From Cellulosimicrobium sp. Marseille-Q4280 (GTDB lineage Bacteria > Actinomycetota > Actinomycetes > Actinomycetales > Cellulomonadaceae): a DNA stretch of 64,000 bases. The notes below the pieces were generated by a model. That model saw nothing but the letters and a program-made list of their open reading frames with translations, made no database searches and was not told the origin of the DNA. Below, piece by piece: positions 7,660 to 48,826 of this stretch. Numbering within the stretch: position 1 is the stretch's first letter; every line of letters starts with the position of its first letter. The stretch is from contig NZ_CALPBY010000005.1 in assembly GCF_943181405.1 (NCBI RefSeq), positions 248,001 to 312,000 of the forward strand, in the 5' to 3' direction. The position numbers and the translations under genes were made by a program.

Positions 7660-9084
7660 ATGGGCCGCCACTCCGCTCCGCGCACCTCGCTGCGCTCGAC
7701 CCTCGGTGCGACGGCTCGCCTCGACGCTCTCGTGCCGCCCGTGACGGGCCCGCGCGCCCGCCGCACCGCCGTCGGGACCGGCGCCGCCCTCGCGGCCGTC
7801 GCGCTCACGGCGACCACCGCCGCCGCCGCGTTCGTCGACCCCGCGGGGACCTCGACGCAGGGCGCGACGACGCCGGCCCCGGAGACGACCTCTCCCCTCA
7901 CGACGGCGGGCTCGCCGGCCGTCGTCGCGGACCCCGCGGTGATCGACGCCGCGAGCGACGCGCTCGTGCGCGCGGAGTACGTGACGAGCGAGCAGGCGGG
8001 GTCCCTCCCCGCCGCCCAGGCCGCGAAGATCGAGGAGACGCGGACGCGGCTCTCCGAGGCGATCACCGCGACCGGAGGCTCGGCCGACGTGCTGTCCGCC
8101 GCCGCACCGGAGGCCCCTGCCACCGAGGACGCAGCCGGCGCCGAGGACACGGCGGCCGCGAAGACCGCAGCGGCGGAGGACGCCGGCACCGAGGCTGCCA
8201 CGGCCGACAAGGCCGGCGAGGCCGCAGGTACCCAGGCTGCAGGTGCCGAGACGGCCGACCGGGACGCCGACAGGGCGAGCCGCAGCACCGAGCGCACGCG
8301 TCTCGACGAGCTGGCCGCACCGCTCACGGGGGGGCTCGTGGCCCCCACGCCGCTCGAGCCCGCCACGGACGGTGCGGCGGACGCCGAGCCGTCGGGCGAC
8401 GCGACGTCGGCAGCAGACGACGCTCCGGACGAGGACGCCCCGTCCGACGCGGCGACCGACGACGCCGCGGCCACGGAGAAGGCGGCGGCCGCCGAGCCTG
8501 CTGCCGAGGACGACGCCGCGACGGTCGCGCCCGCGAGCGCCGACGACATCACCGCGCTGACCGCCGAGCTGCGCACGCTGCTCGACGCGACCGAGGCGGG
8601 AGTCGCCGTCGAGGTCGTCCCCGGCCCGCCGTCGGCAGCCGAGGTGGCCGCCCAGCTCGACCAGTGGGCGACCTCCACGGCCGGGTACGGCAACGGTCAG
8701 ATCCCGGCCGAGGTGCTGTGCGAGCTGTCCTTCGCGCCCGGCGAGATGCTGCGCTGCGACGCCGACCACCAGATCGAGGCGCTCAACCTCAAGTACCGCG
8801 AGGCGTTCGGCACGGACCTGTCCGTCACCGACTCCTACCGCTCCTACGGCTCCCAGGTCTCGGTCAAGGCGTCGCGCGGCTACTACGCGGCGACCCCGGG
8901 GACGTCGGACCACGGCTGGGGCCTCGCGCTCGACCTCGGTGCCGGCGTGCAGAGCTACGGCACCGCGCAGTACGAGTGGATGCGGGCCAACGCCCCCGCG
9001 TTCGGCTGGGACAACCCCGAGTGGGCCCGCGCCGGCGGGTCCAAGAACGAGCCGTGGCACTGGGAGTACGGCGACCTCTCCTGA
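7660..9084 (+). CDS. M15-family D-alanyl-D-alanine carboxypeptidase (VanY-like)
   Basis: 474 residues. A hydrophobic segment at about residues 43-60 (T-G-A-A-L-A-A-V-A-L-T) anchors or exports the protein. A long Ala/Glu/Asp/Thr-rich low-complexity region spans about residues 145-305. The C-terminal domain of about 140 residues carries the M15B zinc site: S-D-H-G-W-G-L-A-L-D-L (His and Asp ligands, near residue 415) and E-P-W-H-W-E-Y (catalytic Glu and His ligand, near 463). The enzyme is expected to trim D-Ala from peptidoglycan stems outside the membrane. ATG 7660 follows a GAGGA site. Confidence 0.9.
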   Translation: MGRHSAPRTSLRSTLGATARLDALVPPVTGPRARRTAVGTGAALAAVALTATTAAAAFVDPAGTSTQGATTPAPETTSPLTTAGSPAVVADPAVIDAASDALVRAEYVTSEQAGSLPAAQAAKIEETRTRLSEAITATGGSADVLSAAAPEAPATEDAAGAEDTAAAKTAAAEDAGTEAATADKAGEAAGTQAAGAETADRDADRASRSTERTRLDELAAPLTGGLVAPTPLEPATDGAADAEPSGDATSAADDAPDEDAPSDAATDDAAATEKAAAAEPAAEDDAATVAPASADDITALTAELRTLLDATEAGVAVEVVPGPPSAAEVAAQLDQWATSTAGYGNGQIPAEVLCELSFAPGEMLRCDADHQIEALNLKYREAFGTDLSVTDSYRSYGSQVSVKASRGYYAATPGTSDHGWGLALDLGAGVQSYGTAQYEWMRANAPAFGWDNPEWARAGGSKNEPWHWEYGDLS

Positions 9085-42833: not shown

Positions 42834-42841
42834 GTCACCAG

Positions 42842-42977
42842 GTCAAGAGCACCAGCGCCAAGCCCCGGCTCGCTGGTCGGCAACCCCCACGTCACGGCGG
42901 GGTGCTCCGGGAGATGACCAGGCCGCACGGGCACCCGCCGCACGCCGGCAGGACCCGCCCACGGCAAGCGTGATCGA
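42842..42977 (+). ncRNA. SAM-IV riboswitch
   Basis: The leader closely follows the mycobacterial SAM-IV aptamer as I recall it. P1 is GGTCA (42842) pairing with TGACC (42916-42920), and GAGCACC pairs with GGTGCTC. The core CCAGCGCCAAGCCCCGGCT is nearly identical to the family core, as are CGCTGG and GGCAACCC. After P1 comes a GC-rich stem and the 3' pseudoknot element ACGGCAAGCGTG. The aptamer ends about 24 nt before ATG 43001, close enough to mask the ribosome binding site. It should lower expression of the two downstream flavin reductases when S-adenosylmethionine is plentiful. Confidence 0.9.
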
Positions 42978-43000
42978 CGAGAACTGCGAGGAAGACACCC

Positions 43001-43612
43001 ATGACGAACCATCTCTCCCCCTCGGACCCGGCCACGGTGGTGGTCGTGTCCGGCAACCCGCGCGCGGGCTCCCGGACGCTCTCCGCGGCCGAGGCGCTCG
43101 CCCGCCGGGTCGCGGCCCACCTGGCCCCTGAGGCGCCTCCCCACGTCACGACGATCGACCTCGCGACGCTCGGGGGCGAGCTGCTCGCCCCCGAGCACCC
43201 CGCGGCCGACGCCGCGCGCGAGCGGCTCACCGCCGCGACGGTCGCCGTCGTGGCGACGCCCGTCTACAAGGCGTCCTACACCGGCCTGCTCAAGGCGTTC
43301 CTCGACCTCTACGGACCGGACGGTCTCGCGGGGGTCGTCGCGGTCCCGCTCGTCGTGTCGGGGAACCCGGCGCACGCGCTCGTCGGCGAGGTGCACCTGC
43401 GCCCCGTGCTCGTCGAGCTCGGCGCCGTCGTCCCCACCCGCTCTTTCACCGTGACCGAGCCGCAGCTCGCGGACCTCGAACCGGTGGTCGAGGCCTGGAT
43501 CGGCCGCGAGGGCGACGCGCTGCGTCGCGCCGTGACGCCGCTCCACCTCCCGTCGGACGGGCCCGACCGTGAGCCTGCCGTCGTCGACGCGTTCGCGGAG
43601 GTGGCCCGATGA
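43001..43612 (+). CDS. NADPH-dependent FMN reductase (SsuE/MsuE-like)
   Basis: 203 residues, flavodoxin-like fold. The N-terminal phosphate-binding loop reads V-V-S-G-N-P-R-A-G-S-R-T, and A-T-P-V-Y-K-A-S-Y-T-G-L-L-K-A-F-L-D is the flavin-site motif characteristic of SsuE/MsuE. Such enzymes supply reduced FMN to two-component monooxygenases that release sulfite from sulfonates. SAM-IV control supports a sulfur role. The gene overlaps the next one by 4 nt (ATGA). Confidence 0.9.
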   Translation: MTNHLSPSDPATVVVVSGNPRAGSRTLSAAEALARRVAAHLAPEAPPHVTTIDLATLGGELLAPEHPAADAARERLTAATVAVVATPVYKASYTGLLKAFLDLYGPDGLAGVVAVPLVVSGNPAHALVGEVHLRPVLVELGAVVPTRSFTVTEPQLADLEPVVEAWIGREGDALRRAVTPLHLPSDGPDREPAVVDAFAEVAR

Positions 43613-44202
43613 CCGCCGAGCCGGAGGCCCGCGCCGCCGACCTGTACCACCTGGAGGCGCTCCTGACCGAGCAGGACGAGCCGCAGCTCACGCCCGACGA
43701 GTACAAGTCCGTGTTCCGCGGCCACCCCGCGGGTGTCGCCGTGATCGCGCTCGAGCACGACGGGCGCCCCGTCGGCTTCACCGCGACGTCGGTCATCTCC
43801 GTGTCCGCCGCTCCCCCGCTGCTCGCGTTCTCGCTCGCCTCGACGTCCTCGTCGTGGCCCGCGATCTCCGCGGCGCGCACGCTCACGGTGAGCTTCCTCA
43901 CCGACCACCAGGACGACGTGTCCGCGCGGTTCGCGACGAGCGGGATCGACCGGTTCGCCGACGGCGGCTGGTCCCGCCTCGAGTCGGGCGAGCCCGTCAT
44001 CGACGGCGCGCTGTCGTGGGTCCGCGGTCGCGTCGTCCAGCGCACGCCCGTGGGCGACTCCTACCTCGTCTCGCTGCGTGCGCTCGCGTCGAGCGCGGGG
44101 CCCGGCGGCGGCGACCGGCGACCCGGAGAGAGCGGTGCGCCGTCACCGCTCGTCTACCACGACCGCACCTACCACCGGATCGGCGACCACTCGGTGCTGT
44201 GA
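43609..44202 (+). CDS. Flavin reductase-like domain protein
   Basis: 197 residues. The split-barrel flavin reductase domain is shown by F-R-G-H-P-A-G-V-A-V-I, G-F-T-A-T-S-V-I-S-V-S-A-A-P-P-L-L-A-F-S, L-T-V-S-F-L and the final Y-H-D-R-T-Y-H-R-I. About 35 N-terminal residues precede it, and a Gly-rich insertion occurs near residue 165. It is translated from an ATGA overlap with the FMN reductase and shares its SAM-IV leader. Having two different flavin reductases in one operon is notable; no monooxygenase gene is adjacent. Confidence 0.88.
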   Translation: MTAEPEARAADLYHLEALLTEQDEPQLTPDEYKSVFRGHPAGVAVIALEHDGRPVGFTATSVISVSAAPPLLAFSLASTSSSWPAISAARTLTVSFLTDHQDDVSARFATSGIDRFADGGWSRLESGEPVIDGALSWVRGRVVQRTPVGDSYLVSLRALASSAGPGGGDRRPGESGAPSPLVYHDRTYHRIGDHSVL

Positions 44203-46544: not shown

Positions 46545-47699
46545 TCAGGCGATGGCGGCGGAGCGGTGCGCGGGACCGGCCAGCCCGAGCGTCTCCCGCA
46601 ACGTGGTGCCGGGGTACTCGGTGCGGAACAGCCCCGCGCGCTGCAGGAGAGGGACCACACGCTGCACGACCGCGTCGAGGTCCGTGGACAGCGACGACGG
46701 CCGGAGGAGGAAGCCGTCCGCGGCTCCCGCGACGGTCCAGTCCTCGACGGTGGCTGCGAGATCGCGCGCGGTGCCGACGTGCGTCAAGGACCCCGTGTCC
46801 CAGCTCACGCCCTCGAGGTCCTCGATGAGGTCGAGGCGCGCCTGCGCGCTCGCGCGGTCCTGGCCGACGACCACATAGGCGTCGACCAGGACGCGCAGGT
46901 CGTCGGGGCGCCGACCGACGTCGGCCGCCGCGGACCGCAGCCTCTCCCGCAGCGCGACGGCCTCGTCGCGGCTCGACGTGCGCACGCGGACGACGTCTGC
47001 GCGGCGTACCGCGAGATCCTCAGACTCGGGCGACGTCACGCGGACGACGACGGGCGGCCGGCCCTGCGGCGGGCGCGGCACGGTCGGCGCCTCGTCGACC
47101 ACGAAACGGATGCCGTCGCGGTCGACGCGGTGGACCGCCTCCCGGTCGCGGGAGCGGCCGCTCGCGACGTCCCGGGTCCGGGTGGCCCCGTCCTCCCAGC
47201 CCTCCCAGAGGCACGCGACGGCCCCGACGACCTCGGCCGCCTCGGCGACGCCGTCGGCTGCGCGCTGCGGACCCCTCCGTCCGGACGCGGCGGCGTCCGC
47301 GGGCGTCGTCGACCACCCGACCTGCCAACCGGCCCGGCCGTTGCTCACGTGGTCGATCGTCGCGAGGGCTCGGGAGACGTGGAACGGCTCGGCGTGCGTC
47401 GTGCTGACGGTCGGGACGAGGCCGATGCCCACGCTCCGTGGCGCGAGGCGGGATGCGACGAGCGCCGCGTCGAGCCGCCCGCGAGCGCCGCGACCGTGCT
47501 GGGGCGAGAACGCGTCGTCGAGCGTCACGAGGTCGAGCAGCCCGCGCTCGGCGGTAGCGACGAGCTCGACGAGACGCCTGGCGTCGAAGAGCCGCTGCGT
47601 CCGGGCGCCCGCCGTGCTCCACGCGGCGGGATGCGCACCCGCGTCGGTGAGGTCGACGCCGAGGTGGACGCGGTAGGGAGGGGTGGTCGTGCCGGGCAT
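46545..47699 (-). CDS. LLM-class flavin-dependent monooxygenase (NtaA/DszA-like)
   Basis: 384 residues, bacterial luciferase-like TIM barrel, slightly short for the NtaA/SnaA/DszA group (about 430-450). Family features are A-E-R-G-L-L-D-L-V-T-L-D-D-A-F, S-V-G-I-G-L-V-P-T-V-S-T-T-H, A-T-I-D-H-V-S-N-G-R-A-G-W-Q-V-G-W and a C-terminal A-D-G-F-L-L-R-P. Such enzymes use FMNH2 from a separate reductase to oxidise C-S, C-N or other bonds; the substrate is unknown. A Cys-rich upstream ORF and a long leader suggest sulfur-dependent regulation. No ribosome binding site is obvious before ATG 47699. Confidence 0.86.
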   Translation of the reverse strand: MPGTTTPPYRVHLGVDLTDAGAHPAAWSTAGARTQRLFDARRLVELVATAERGLLDLVTLDDAFSPQHGRGARGRLDAALVASRLAPRSVGIGLVPTVSTTHAEPFHVSRALATIDHVSNGRAGWQVGWSTTPADAAASGRRGPQRAADGVAEAAEVVGAVACLWEGWEDGATRTRDVASGRSRDREAVHRVDRDGIRFVVDEAPTVPRPPQGRPPVVVRVTSPESEDLAVRRADVVRVRTSSRDEAVALRERLRSAAADVGRRPDDLRVLVDAYVVVGQDRASAQARLDLIEDLEGVSWDTGSLTHVGTARDLAATVEDWTVAGAADGFLLRPSSLSTDLDAVVQRVVPLLQRAGLFRTEYPGTTLRETLGLAGPAHRSAAIA

Positions 47700-47850
47700 G
47701 GGTCATCCGTTCTCGAGGCACGCGGACGCACAGGCGCCCCGGCGAGGAGCAGGCCCGAGCGCTGCCGGACGCGGTGCACGGTGGCGAGGTCCAGGACGCG
47801 GCCGGCGACGGGCGTCGCGGGCGTCGGCGATGCAGGCGGTCGGCGGTCGG

Positions 47851-47967
47851 CTAGCGACGACAGAGGTGTCGGCCACGGGTCCGGGACCGCTCGTCCCGGC
47901 AGGCGGCGATCAGGAGGCAGGTCGCGGTGCGGCACGCCGCACCGCGCGACGGGAGGTGGCCCATCAT
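47851..47967 (-). CDS. Cys-rich leader peptide (upstream ORF) of the monooxygenase gene
   Basis: 38 codons from ATG 47967 (or 47964) to a TAG at 47851-47853, with a strong GGAGG 6 nt upstream. It encodes an Arg-rich peptide with four cysteines at positions 12, 17, 23 and 36 and a final R-H-L-C-R-R. It lies on the transcript predicted from the consensus promoter at 48033-48061, 151 nt before the monooxygenase ATG. Cys-codon-containing leader peptides that sense cysteine supply by ribosome pausing are known upstream of sulfur genes in actinobacteria. This assignment is by pattern and needs experimental support. Confidence 0.65.
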   Translation of the reverse strand: MMGHLPSRGAACRTATCLLIAACRDERSRTRGRHLCRR

Positions 47968-48032
47968 CGCCCCCCTCCGGTGTCGGCCTCACGACCATGT
48001 CGTCACCGGGACCGTGATGTCTCGGTGCGGGG

Positions 48033-48061
48033 AACCTACGAGGGCCCCCGGGGGGTGTCAA
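48033..48061 (-). promoter_or_regulatory. Consensus promoter for the monooxygenase leader transcript
   Basis: On the minus strand TTGACA (48056-48061) and TAGGTT (48033-48038) are separated by exactly 17 bp. Transcription would start near 48026, giving a 5' leader of about 327 nt. Confidence 0.65.
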
Positions 48062-48091
48062 CGCGATCCGGGCGGCTTCCCACATACTGGA

Positions 48092-48110
48092 CCAATGTTG
48101 TCAACATTGG
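48092..48110. promoter_or_regulatory. 19-bp palindrome CCAATGTTG-T-CAACATTGG
   Basis: Perfect 9-1-9 inverted repeat, 30 bp upstream of the monooxygenase -35 box and 18 bp from the tetR operator. It could bind an activator of the monooxygenase gene or be a second site for the divergent TetR regulator. Confidence 0.6.
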
Positions 48111-48127
48111 CCTCGGAAGGGCGTAGT

Positions 48128-48142
48128 TTGCACTCAGTGCAA
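48128..48142. promoter_or_regulatory. TetR-type operator TTGCACT-C-AGTGCAA
   Basis: Perfect 7-1-7 palindrome whose first six bases TTGCAC also serve as -35 box, 18 bp from the -10 TAGTGT. This fits autoregulation of the tetR-MMPL operon. Confidence 0.7.
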
Positions 48143-48151
48143 CGATGCACC

Positions 48152-48157
48152 TAGTGT
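48152..48157 (+). promoter_or_regulatory. -10 box of leaderless tetR promoter
   Basis: TAGTGT ends 6 nt before GTG 48164. Confidence 0.5.
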
Positions 48158-48163
48158 CGTGAC

Positions 48164-48826
48164 GTGATCCCCGAGCCCCCGCCCGCCGACCGGCGCGCCG
48201 CCCTCCGGCAGCGCCACCGGCGCGCCATCGTCGACGCCGCCGCGGCGCTCCTCGACGAGCGGAACGGCGCCCCGTTCACCGTCGACGAGCTCGCCGCACG
48301 CGCCGACGTCGCCCGCCGCACGGTCTTCAACCACTTCTCGTCCGTGGACGACGTCGTGGCAGAGGTCGGTGCGCGCGTGCTGGGCGAGGTCGCCGCCGAC
48401 TTCGGCGCGAGCGCCGCCGCGCCCCGGGACGACGAGCGCGACGGCTCGCTCTTCGACGAGCTCGCCGAGCTCCTGCGCGCGACCGATCTCGTCGCACCGA
48501 TGGCCTACCTGACGCGCGTGCTCGGCAGCGAGGGCTGCGCCGAGCCGTCGCCGCGCGTGACGGCGATGGTCGCGCGGACGTTCACCGACCTCAGCGAGAG
48601 GCTCGTCGTGGGCCTCTCGCGACGGCACCCCGAGGCCGACCTGCTCGACGTCCAGCTCCTCGTCGCGTCGTTCATGAGCGGCATCATGGTCGTCCACCGC
48701 CACTGGTGGGAGGCCACGGGCGCCGCGGACGACGCCGCGTCCCGGGAGGTCTGGAGCGGGCTGCTCGACCACCTCGTGGAACGCGCGCGGCACGGGCACG
48801 CCGCGCCGTCGGACCGCACCTCCTGA
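48164..48826 (+). CDS. TetR family repressor
   Basis: 220 residues. The N-terminal DNA-binding domain contains I-V-D-A-A-A-A-L-L, F-T-V-D-E-L-A-A-R-A-D-V-A-R-R-T-V-F-N-H-F-S-S, the standard TetR helix-turn-helix. The C-terminal ligand domain is unassigned. It directly precedes the MMPL transporter (78 bp), has a palindromic operator over its own promoter, and so is most likely the local repressor of the pump, relieved by a toxic or lipid ligand (inference). GTG 48164 is set by the leaderless promoter. Confidence 0.9.
   Translation: MIPEPPPADRRAALRQRHRRAIVDAAAALLDERNGAPFTVDELAARADVARRTVFNHFSSVDDVVAEVGARVLGEVAADFGASAAAPRDDERDGSLFDELAELLRATDLVAPMAYLTRVLGSEGCAEPSPRVTAMVARTFTDLSERLVVGLSRRHPEADLLDVQLLVASFMSGIMVVHRHWWEATGAADDAASREVWSGLLDHLVERARHGHAAPSDRTS

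Follow-up and report, generated by a model that had tools for sequence, protein, structure and literature searches.

The locus considered here raises the question of what a short, cysteine-rich open reading frame (ORF) is doing ahead of a monooxygenase gene, in a 64,000-nucleotide stretch of the Cellulosimicrobium sp. Marseille-Q4280 genome (hereafter the window). The gene (46545..47699, minus strand, as are all elements in this paragraph) encodes an FMN-dependent luciferase-like monooxygenase of the NtaA/DmoA/DszA type, with 384 aa, one Cys and no internal Met. An earlier note had described a consensus promoter, a strong ribosome binding site (RBS) and an ORF of 38 codons, four of which encode Cys; all of these were recovered on the minus strand as described: the promoter pattern TTGACA-17-TAGGTT at 48033..48061 (TTGACA at 48061-48056, 17 nt, TAGGTT at 48038-48033), the RBS GGAGGGGG at 47978-47971 and the ORF at 47967-47851, with Cys at codons 12, 17, 23 and 36. 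The word consensus was too strong for the promoter. A relaxed scan detected the pattern in all 13 loci examined, window included, but the -10 box fits only 3 of 6 consensus positions, and a strict-rule scan of the window locus reported no promoter because of this poor box. A transcript starting at 48026 would carry a leader of 327 nt, as computed from the coordinates, before the monooxygenase ATG at 47699. The ORF translates to MMGHLPSRGAACRTATCLLIAACRDERSRTRGRHLCRR; its Cys codons are TGC, TGC, TGC and TGT in order, and it ends with CTC TGT CGT CGC TAG. Between the ORF and the gene lies a spacer of 151 nt (47700..47850; C 0.46, G 0.32), a candidate Rho loading region, with a conserved AGAACGGAT inside GAGAACGGAT (47714-47705). 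GC-rich repeats had been claimed for this spacer, but a repeat finder gave no direct or inverted repeat of at least 10 nt; the spacer is C-rich instead.

High-GC DNA is rich in spurious ORFs, and the leader ORF might accordingly have arisen by chance. Among 2000 dinucleotide shuffles of the window leader, an ORF with at least four Cys and a Shine-Dalgarno (SD) match of at least 5 nt was generated only 4 times; the counts were 38 of 2000 when an SD match of 4 nt sufficed, and 19 of 2000 for three Cys or more under the 5-nt SD threshold. The orthologous loci contradict a chance origin as well. In the genus Cellulosimicrobium, 12 of 17 genomes, including that of the window, possess an ortholog of the monooxygenase at E <= 1e-100, and an SD-led Cys leader precedes 10 of the 11 other orthologs, ending in CCR in nine cases and CRR in one (for example, MDRRESSTAVSTPHAPTCPCPVRGAAVVPCPVGAPVRVTCCR). 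The SD stands at the same place in these 10 of 11 orthologs (GAAGGAG in the ten genus leaders), length changes preserve the reading frame, and the Cys of PCP is present in all ten leaders, while their middle part differs by whole codons. The end of the window leader, TGTCGTCGC followed by the stop, aligns with the end of the leader of L007. Compared with its relatives, the window leader has a non-conserved N-terminus and ends with CRR instead of CCR, and it is weaker than most, as the common codon TGC encodes the first three of its Cys and only the last is TGT. Given both the shuffle test and the conservation, we regard a chance ORF as scarcely credible. The alignment across relatives that the earlier note had proposed thus came out as it had anticipated, in that the ORF is conserved beside the monooxygenase together with the Cys codons at its end. 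The opposite outcome, a lost leader beside a retained monooxygenase, was seen in a single relative, the eleventh ortholog (L014), where the leader is wholly lost and the promoter, the gene and AGAACGGA before the gene are kept.

The leaders share a codon signature. Of the 50 that were compared, window included (49 distinct peptides; L044 and L015 left out), 46 use the rare TGT for their last Cys; this codon stands 1-4 codons ahead of the stop in 47, and an Arg codon comes next in 37. This positional clustering comes in part from the selection of the leaders, most of which were required to have two or more Cys among their last nine residues; codon choice was no criterion. Altogether, the Cys codons of the 50 leaders amount to 137 TGT and 40 TGC, against 13 TGT and 136 TGC (n = 149) in 44 long control ORFs of high GC3. 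The enrichment of TGT at the last Cys codon gave a P value of 2e-28 in Fisher's test, which is too small given that the sequences are related and that the ORF filter disfavours TGT.

The strong RBS and the four Cys could also befit a small functional Cys-rich protein, for instance a metal-binding one, rather than a leader peptide. The peptides of the relatives vary from 8 to 47 aa, and across genera they have little in common beyond the terminal Cys; one of the shortest type, MRMCCCRH, precedes an ABC-transporter-like gene. Such a short peptide, and the restriction of the similarity mostly to the terminal Cys, render a protein function highly improbable. We consider that the ORF, its conservation and its codon bias support the presence of a genuine cysteine leader peptide gene, as far as sequence comparison can tell. 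The window ORF matched none of the known leader-family profiles at E <= 1. Likewise, out of seven leaders of relatives tested against the profiles, three of the TCCR/TCRH/CSCR kind matched nothing at E <= 10; those of the HIDL kind from L083, L111 and L106 exceeded the cut-off of NF042934, and that of L021 matched below it. Outside the family (59 loci, L054-L112), only 10 loci passed the leader criterion, their ends being mostly like RPHIDLQRVAGALCCS and mostly lacking the SAM-IV core pattern upstream. A leader of the classic type, MSVSVPTWYLTERRDVDLRRVASALCR, which scores over the NF042934 cut-off, was also noticed elsewhere in the genome of the window (L283, 1474-1557), ahead of a gene we take to be transporter-like.

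The orthologous loci revealed a second regulatory element. In ten relatives of the genus, a SAM-IV riboswitch (RF00634) lies between the promoter and the leader; its scores range from 77.7 to 87.9 bits, the gathering score being 38. By contrast, no match to SAM-IV was found at 47680-48180 of the window even at E <= 10; when the locus was searched for known RNA families at E <= 10, the six matches obtained were weak and unrelated, fell below their gathering scores without exception and were dismissed. The earlier note did not mention SAM-IV, which sits directly before the leader ORF in most relatives, because the genome of the window has lost it at this locus. Only the start of the riboswitch region persists. 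The 5' end of the window leader (47988..48031, minus strand, including GACATGGTCGTGAG at 48001-47988) can be aligned collinearly to the 47-49 nt with which this region opens in the relatives, up to GGTCGTGAG, where the aptamer begins. At most 3 of 500 shuffles scored as well as this alignment for nine of the ten relatives; for L007 the number was 36 of 500. The simplest reading is that an internal deletion of roughly 130 nt removed most of the riboswitch. Going by these alignments, the SAM-IV half is lost at the window locus and the cysteine half alone is kept. A genome search detected two SAM-IV copies elsewhere, one before a reductase pair at 42841 and the other before a gene that we take to be cysteine-desulfurase-like; a leader was seen at neither. 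In the same genome, locus L113 bears a divergent pair of riboswitches about 145 nt apart, SAM-IV (7948-8063, minus strand) and SAM-I (S box; 8209-8310, plus strand), which precede presumed desulfurase-like and rhodanese-like genes, respectively.

The deletion of most of SAM-IV invites the idea that the leader ORF of the window is a decaying remnant, in which cysteine control has become ineffective after the loss of the riboswitch. Other traits of the locus point the same way: (i) the N-terminus and codon use of the leader have diverged, (ii) the second monooxygenase gene that adjoins the first in relatives is absent here, where a Dps gene of convergent orientation on the opposite strand comes next, and (iii) the window enzyme has a Cys, unlike those of the riboswitch-bearing members of the genus. 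Nevertheless, the ORF, the strong RBS, the terminal TGT-CGT-CGC-stop and the spacing are all intact, a combination that the above shuffles rarely reproduced (4 of 2000). We therefore judge decay to be unlikely. In the relative L114, the operon continues with what we take to be a second monooxygenase gene and amino-acid-type ABC transporter-like genes.

The association of riboswitch and leader was counted across the family at 34 homologous loci with at least 43% identity to the window protein (window, L002-L018, L020, L036-L045, L047, L049, L050, L052 and L053; the duplicates L033, L034, L035, L046, L048 and L051, as well as L019 and L021 of other families, stand outside). SAM-IV above the gathering score lies upstream in 25 of the 34, the window being among the nine without it. 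Both SAM-IV and a Cys leader occur at 24 loci and the leader alone at eight (window, L013, L036, L038, L040, L041, L042 and L053); L015 has SAM-IV with a doubtful leader, an ORF of a single Cys, and L014 has neither element. Two of the leaders were admitted by judgement: that of L038, with one Cys in the last nine residues, by its likeness to those of L013 and L042, and that of L044 from its ATG form. SAM-IV was present in 110 of the 121 family genomes sampled. We picked 60 SAM-IV loci by hand from a longer list, mostly from its lower-scoring part; this set is not random, includes close species and overlaps with the named loci at least once (L162 = L043). A Cys leader followed 19 of the 60, its ATG 10-45 nt (median 32) downstream of SAM-IV, and under a stricter rule demanding an SD-led Cys leader 18 of the 60 qualified, against 0.06 expected from shuffles. 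At the 41 loci with no leader found, the ATG of the gene itself was located within 150 nt of SAM-IV in 36 (median 25, range 4-107).

Leaders precede what we take to be monooxygenase genes, ABC transporter genes and a symporter gene, and no leader was found among the picked loci where SAM-IV stands before presumed ssuE-like reductase and desulfurase-like genes. This contrast serves as an internal control, showing that the leader does not accompany the riboswitch by itself. The pairing is not strict either, as at least three similar monooxygenase genes (L164, L178 and L184) lie 30-32 nt behind SAM-IV with no leader found in between. Nor is it confined to the family, since L083 (a Frankiales MAG) and L111 (Streptomyces), which were read closely together with the family members among the 80 loci of the homolog search, carry SAM-IV followed by the classic-type leaders over the NF042934 cut-off mentioned above, and since further leaders were found at class level. 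In the latter survey, six of 40 SAM-IV loci, again chosen by us from a longer list and not at random, passed the leader criterion, and five were accepted (e.g., MHCCCTSIYT and MCCCCLSLAHR); L277 was discounted, as a longer SD-led ORF starts inside its leader.

How might the leader act on the monooxygenase gene? The earlier note had recognized the layout of ribosome-mediated attenuation by cysteine supply. One part of this proposal agrees with the data, namely an SD-led short ORF with conserved Cys codons and a terminal TGT, but the mutually exclusive hairpins and the intrinsic terminator that belong to the classical form were not detected. A hairpin attenuator was rejected for the window locus, in which no terminator-like site was found. 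The predicted fold of the leader was no more stable than those of its shuffles (z = +1.37; 92 of 100 folded at least as well), and in the leader alignment only 3 of 40 predicted pairs showed two-sided change, with an unfavourable covariation term of +1.1.

Alternatively, attenuation could be translational, if an RNA structure hid the start of the monooxygenase gene until stalling of a ribosome at the Cys codons opened it; this is the mode ascribed to cysteine genes of M. smegmatis in one report (PMC13236596). In our models the start region is already 0.30-0.64 unpaired with no ribosome bound, and simulated stalling in nine sequences did not open it, the shift being less than 0.1 in eight of them; the exception was a single stall in L003 (0.30 to 0.49). 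As covariation lends no support either, we consider translational attenuation distinctly unlikely at this locus.

The spacer suggests a different solution. In leaders controlled through Rho in the manner of TnaC, a C-rich, G-poor region follows the leader stop, and a stalled ribosome shields the Rho loading site. C exceeded G in all 39 spacers measured (median C 0.50, G 0.29); this number leaves out L040, L041, L042, L044, L047, L049, L052 and L053, and the picked loci with a gap of at least 230 nt (L162, L191, L195 and L199). Among control upstream regions, from which four ortholog spacers were excluded, 5 of 34 reached a C-G difference of 0.14, the level of the least C-rich spacer. A C-rich spacer behind Cys codons pressed against the stop fits a stalled ribosome that shields a Rho loading site, as has been proposed for cys leaders of Mycobacterium (PMC1262725), and it weakly suggests Rho-dependent termination within the spacer.

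Accordingly worded, the explanation that we think probable is that the ORF encodes a leader peptide which responds to cysteine and controls a sulfur-scavenging flavin monooxygenase, with plentiful Cys-tRNA leading to termination, probably via Rho, and with SAM-IV gating the leader in most of the family. Ribosomes would initiate at the strong leader SD and reach the Cys codons just 5' of the stop. If Cys-tRNA is plentiful, the ribosome would complete the leader and depart, the C-rich spacer would be exposed, and transcription would stop before the enzyme gene, probably by Rho. If Cys-tRNA is scarce, the ribosome would pause on the terminal TGT and cover the start of the spacer, and transcription would continue. 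In most of the family, a SAM-IV located 10-45 nt before the leader ATG would gate leader translation as such, and the operon would be switched on when SAM and cysteine are both low. In the genome of the window, where most of SAM-IV is deleted at this locus, the cysteine half alone would be left to respond.

The gene under control suits this scheme. The monooxygenase passed PF00296 (101.5 bits, gathering cut-off 27.9) and failed TIGR03860 for NtaA/DmoA FMN monooxygenases (245.9 bits, cut-off 279.7), and its relatives in the PDB are NTA monooxygenase, YtnJ/MoxC and DszA. Past the match start, 22 of 33 homologs contain neither Cys nor Met and 10 have one or two Met; L014 is the only one of the 33 to have a Cys (one), as the window enzyme also does. 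In 66 background ORFs, the median of Cys plus Met was 1.6%, and 12, some of which are these same genes, had at most 0.6%, so sulfur-poor ORFs are no rarity. It is known, however, that cells starved of sulfur make sulfur-poor proteins, and therefore the low Cys and Met content indicates that the monooxygenase is likely a sulfur-scavenging enzyme. Within the genus (n = 12), a Cys in the enzyme was observed only in the window, which has lost the riboswitch, and in L014, which has lost the whole leader.

The window harbours one of the two other SAM-IV copies, at 42841..42943 on the plus strand (RF00634, 71.7 bits), directly 5' of two reductase genes and with no leader ORF seen. The first gene (43001-43612, plus strand) we take to be NADPH-FMN-reductase-like, and the second (43609-44202, plus strand) matches the flavin reductase family PF01613; neither product contains Cys or internal Met. 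Some 2.3 kb separate this block of SAM-IV and reductases (42841-44202) from the monooxygenase gene end, and the two reductases (43001..44202) are likely partners of the monooxygenase.

Actinobacterial Cys-rich leader peptides were reportedly treated by Canestrari and co-workers in 2020. Several profiles describe such leaders (NF042934 cis_reg_atten, NF042933 Ms5788A and NF042936 Ms4527A), to which the window leader is similar in being a short ORF of Cys codons before sulfur genes. It differs from them in being SD-led rather than leaderless, in lacking the HIDLxR motif and in matching none of the models. For mycobacteria, cysteine-responsive attenuation by Cys-rich leaders is described in three reports (PMC9094748, PMC9031893, PMC13236596). 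The candidate leaders of cys operons in Mycobacterium, P. acnes and B. longum (Seliverstov et al. 2005, PMC1262725) also resemble ours: their Cys codons lie close to the stop, a terminator hairpin is lacking, and Rho was suggested as one possibility. They belong to other genes, and the accessible text of that paper reports no riboswitch. Riboswitches acting together with a translated upstream ORF are known from M. tuberculosis (Mbox-rv1805A, PMC12810186; B12-ppe2/metE, PMC11260477), with Rho-dependent termination in the Mbox case; the portions of these reports at hand do not describe the ORFs as amino-acid-sensing leaders. The uORFC-8-2 motif before cysS in Rhodobacterales (PMC8632094) is alike in its tandem Cys codons and unlike in its intrinsic terminator and its phylum, and the available text mentions no riboswitch.

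Actinobacterial Cys leaders, SAM-IV, and riboswitches working with an upstream ORF in M. tuberculosis are therefore already known. What is new at the window is a leader that appears to function as the known Cys leaders do, matches no profile and comes from a lineage with a riboswitch before the leader; SAM-IV is absent from the window locus itself, and in the relatives with a leader it precedes the leader ORF and not the structural gene. In the literature searched, which covered few subscription journals and gives no proof of novelty, we did not find a Cys leader described behind SAM-IV.

It is attractive to speculate that a two-input switch controlling the scavenging of organosulfur is widespread in actinomycetes, with SAM-IV gating the translation of a leader peptide that senses Cys-tRNA via slow TGT codons, the two modules being gained and lost separately and the window representing a natural deletion of the SAM half. 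We hold this broader proposal to be evenly poised between right and wrong. If it is true, SAM and cysteine, two signals of sulfur sufficiency, are joined in one leader RNA, and the gene regulated by the riboswitch is itself a sensor. Homologous genes provide natural variants with both modules, either or neither. Moreover, a short ORF that ends in TGT codons and lies behind SAM-IV would be a practical signature for sulfur-scavenging operons, helping to assign uncharacterised NtaA/DmoA-type monooxygenases to sulfur nutrition.

Some minor observations deserve mention. The published Met leader of metL in S. lividans, MSTTSDRTPATEATTTPGARCMCRRMCAF, carries three Cys near its end (PMC8079986), and it may be a Cys leader. 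At the window locus, the element GTCCAGTATGTGGGAAG (48076..48092, minus strand), just 5' of the -35 box, recurs with identical or near-identical letters upstream in the genus loci and in changed copies in L012 and L014; it is a possible regulator site. Two palindromes, CCAATGTTGACAACATTGG (48092-48110), which was not seen in relatives, and TTGCACTGAGTGCAA (48128-48142), which has counterparts there, lie between a TetR gene and the promoter, and are possible candidates for TetR operators.
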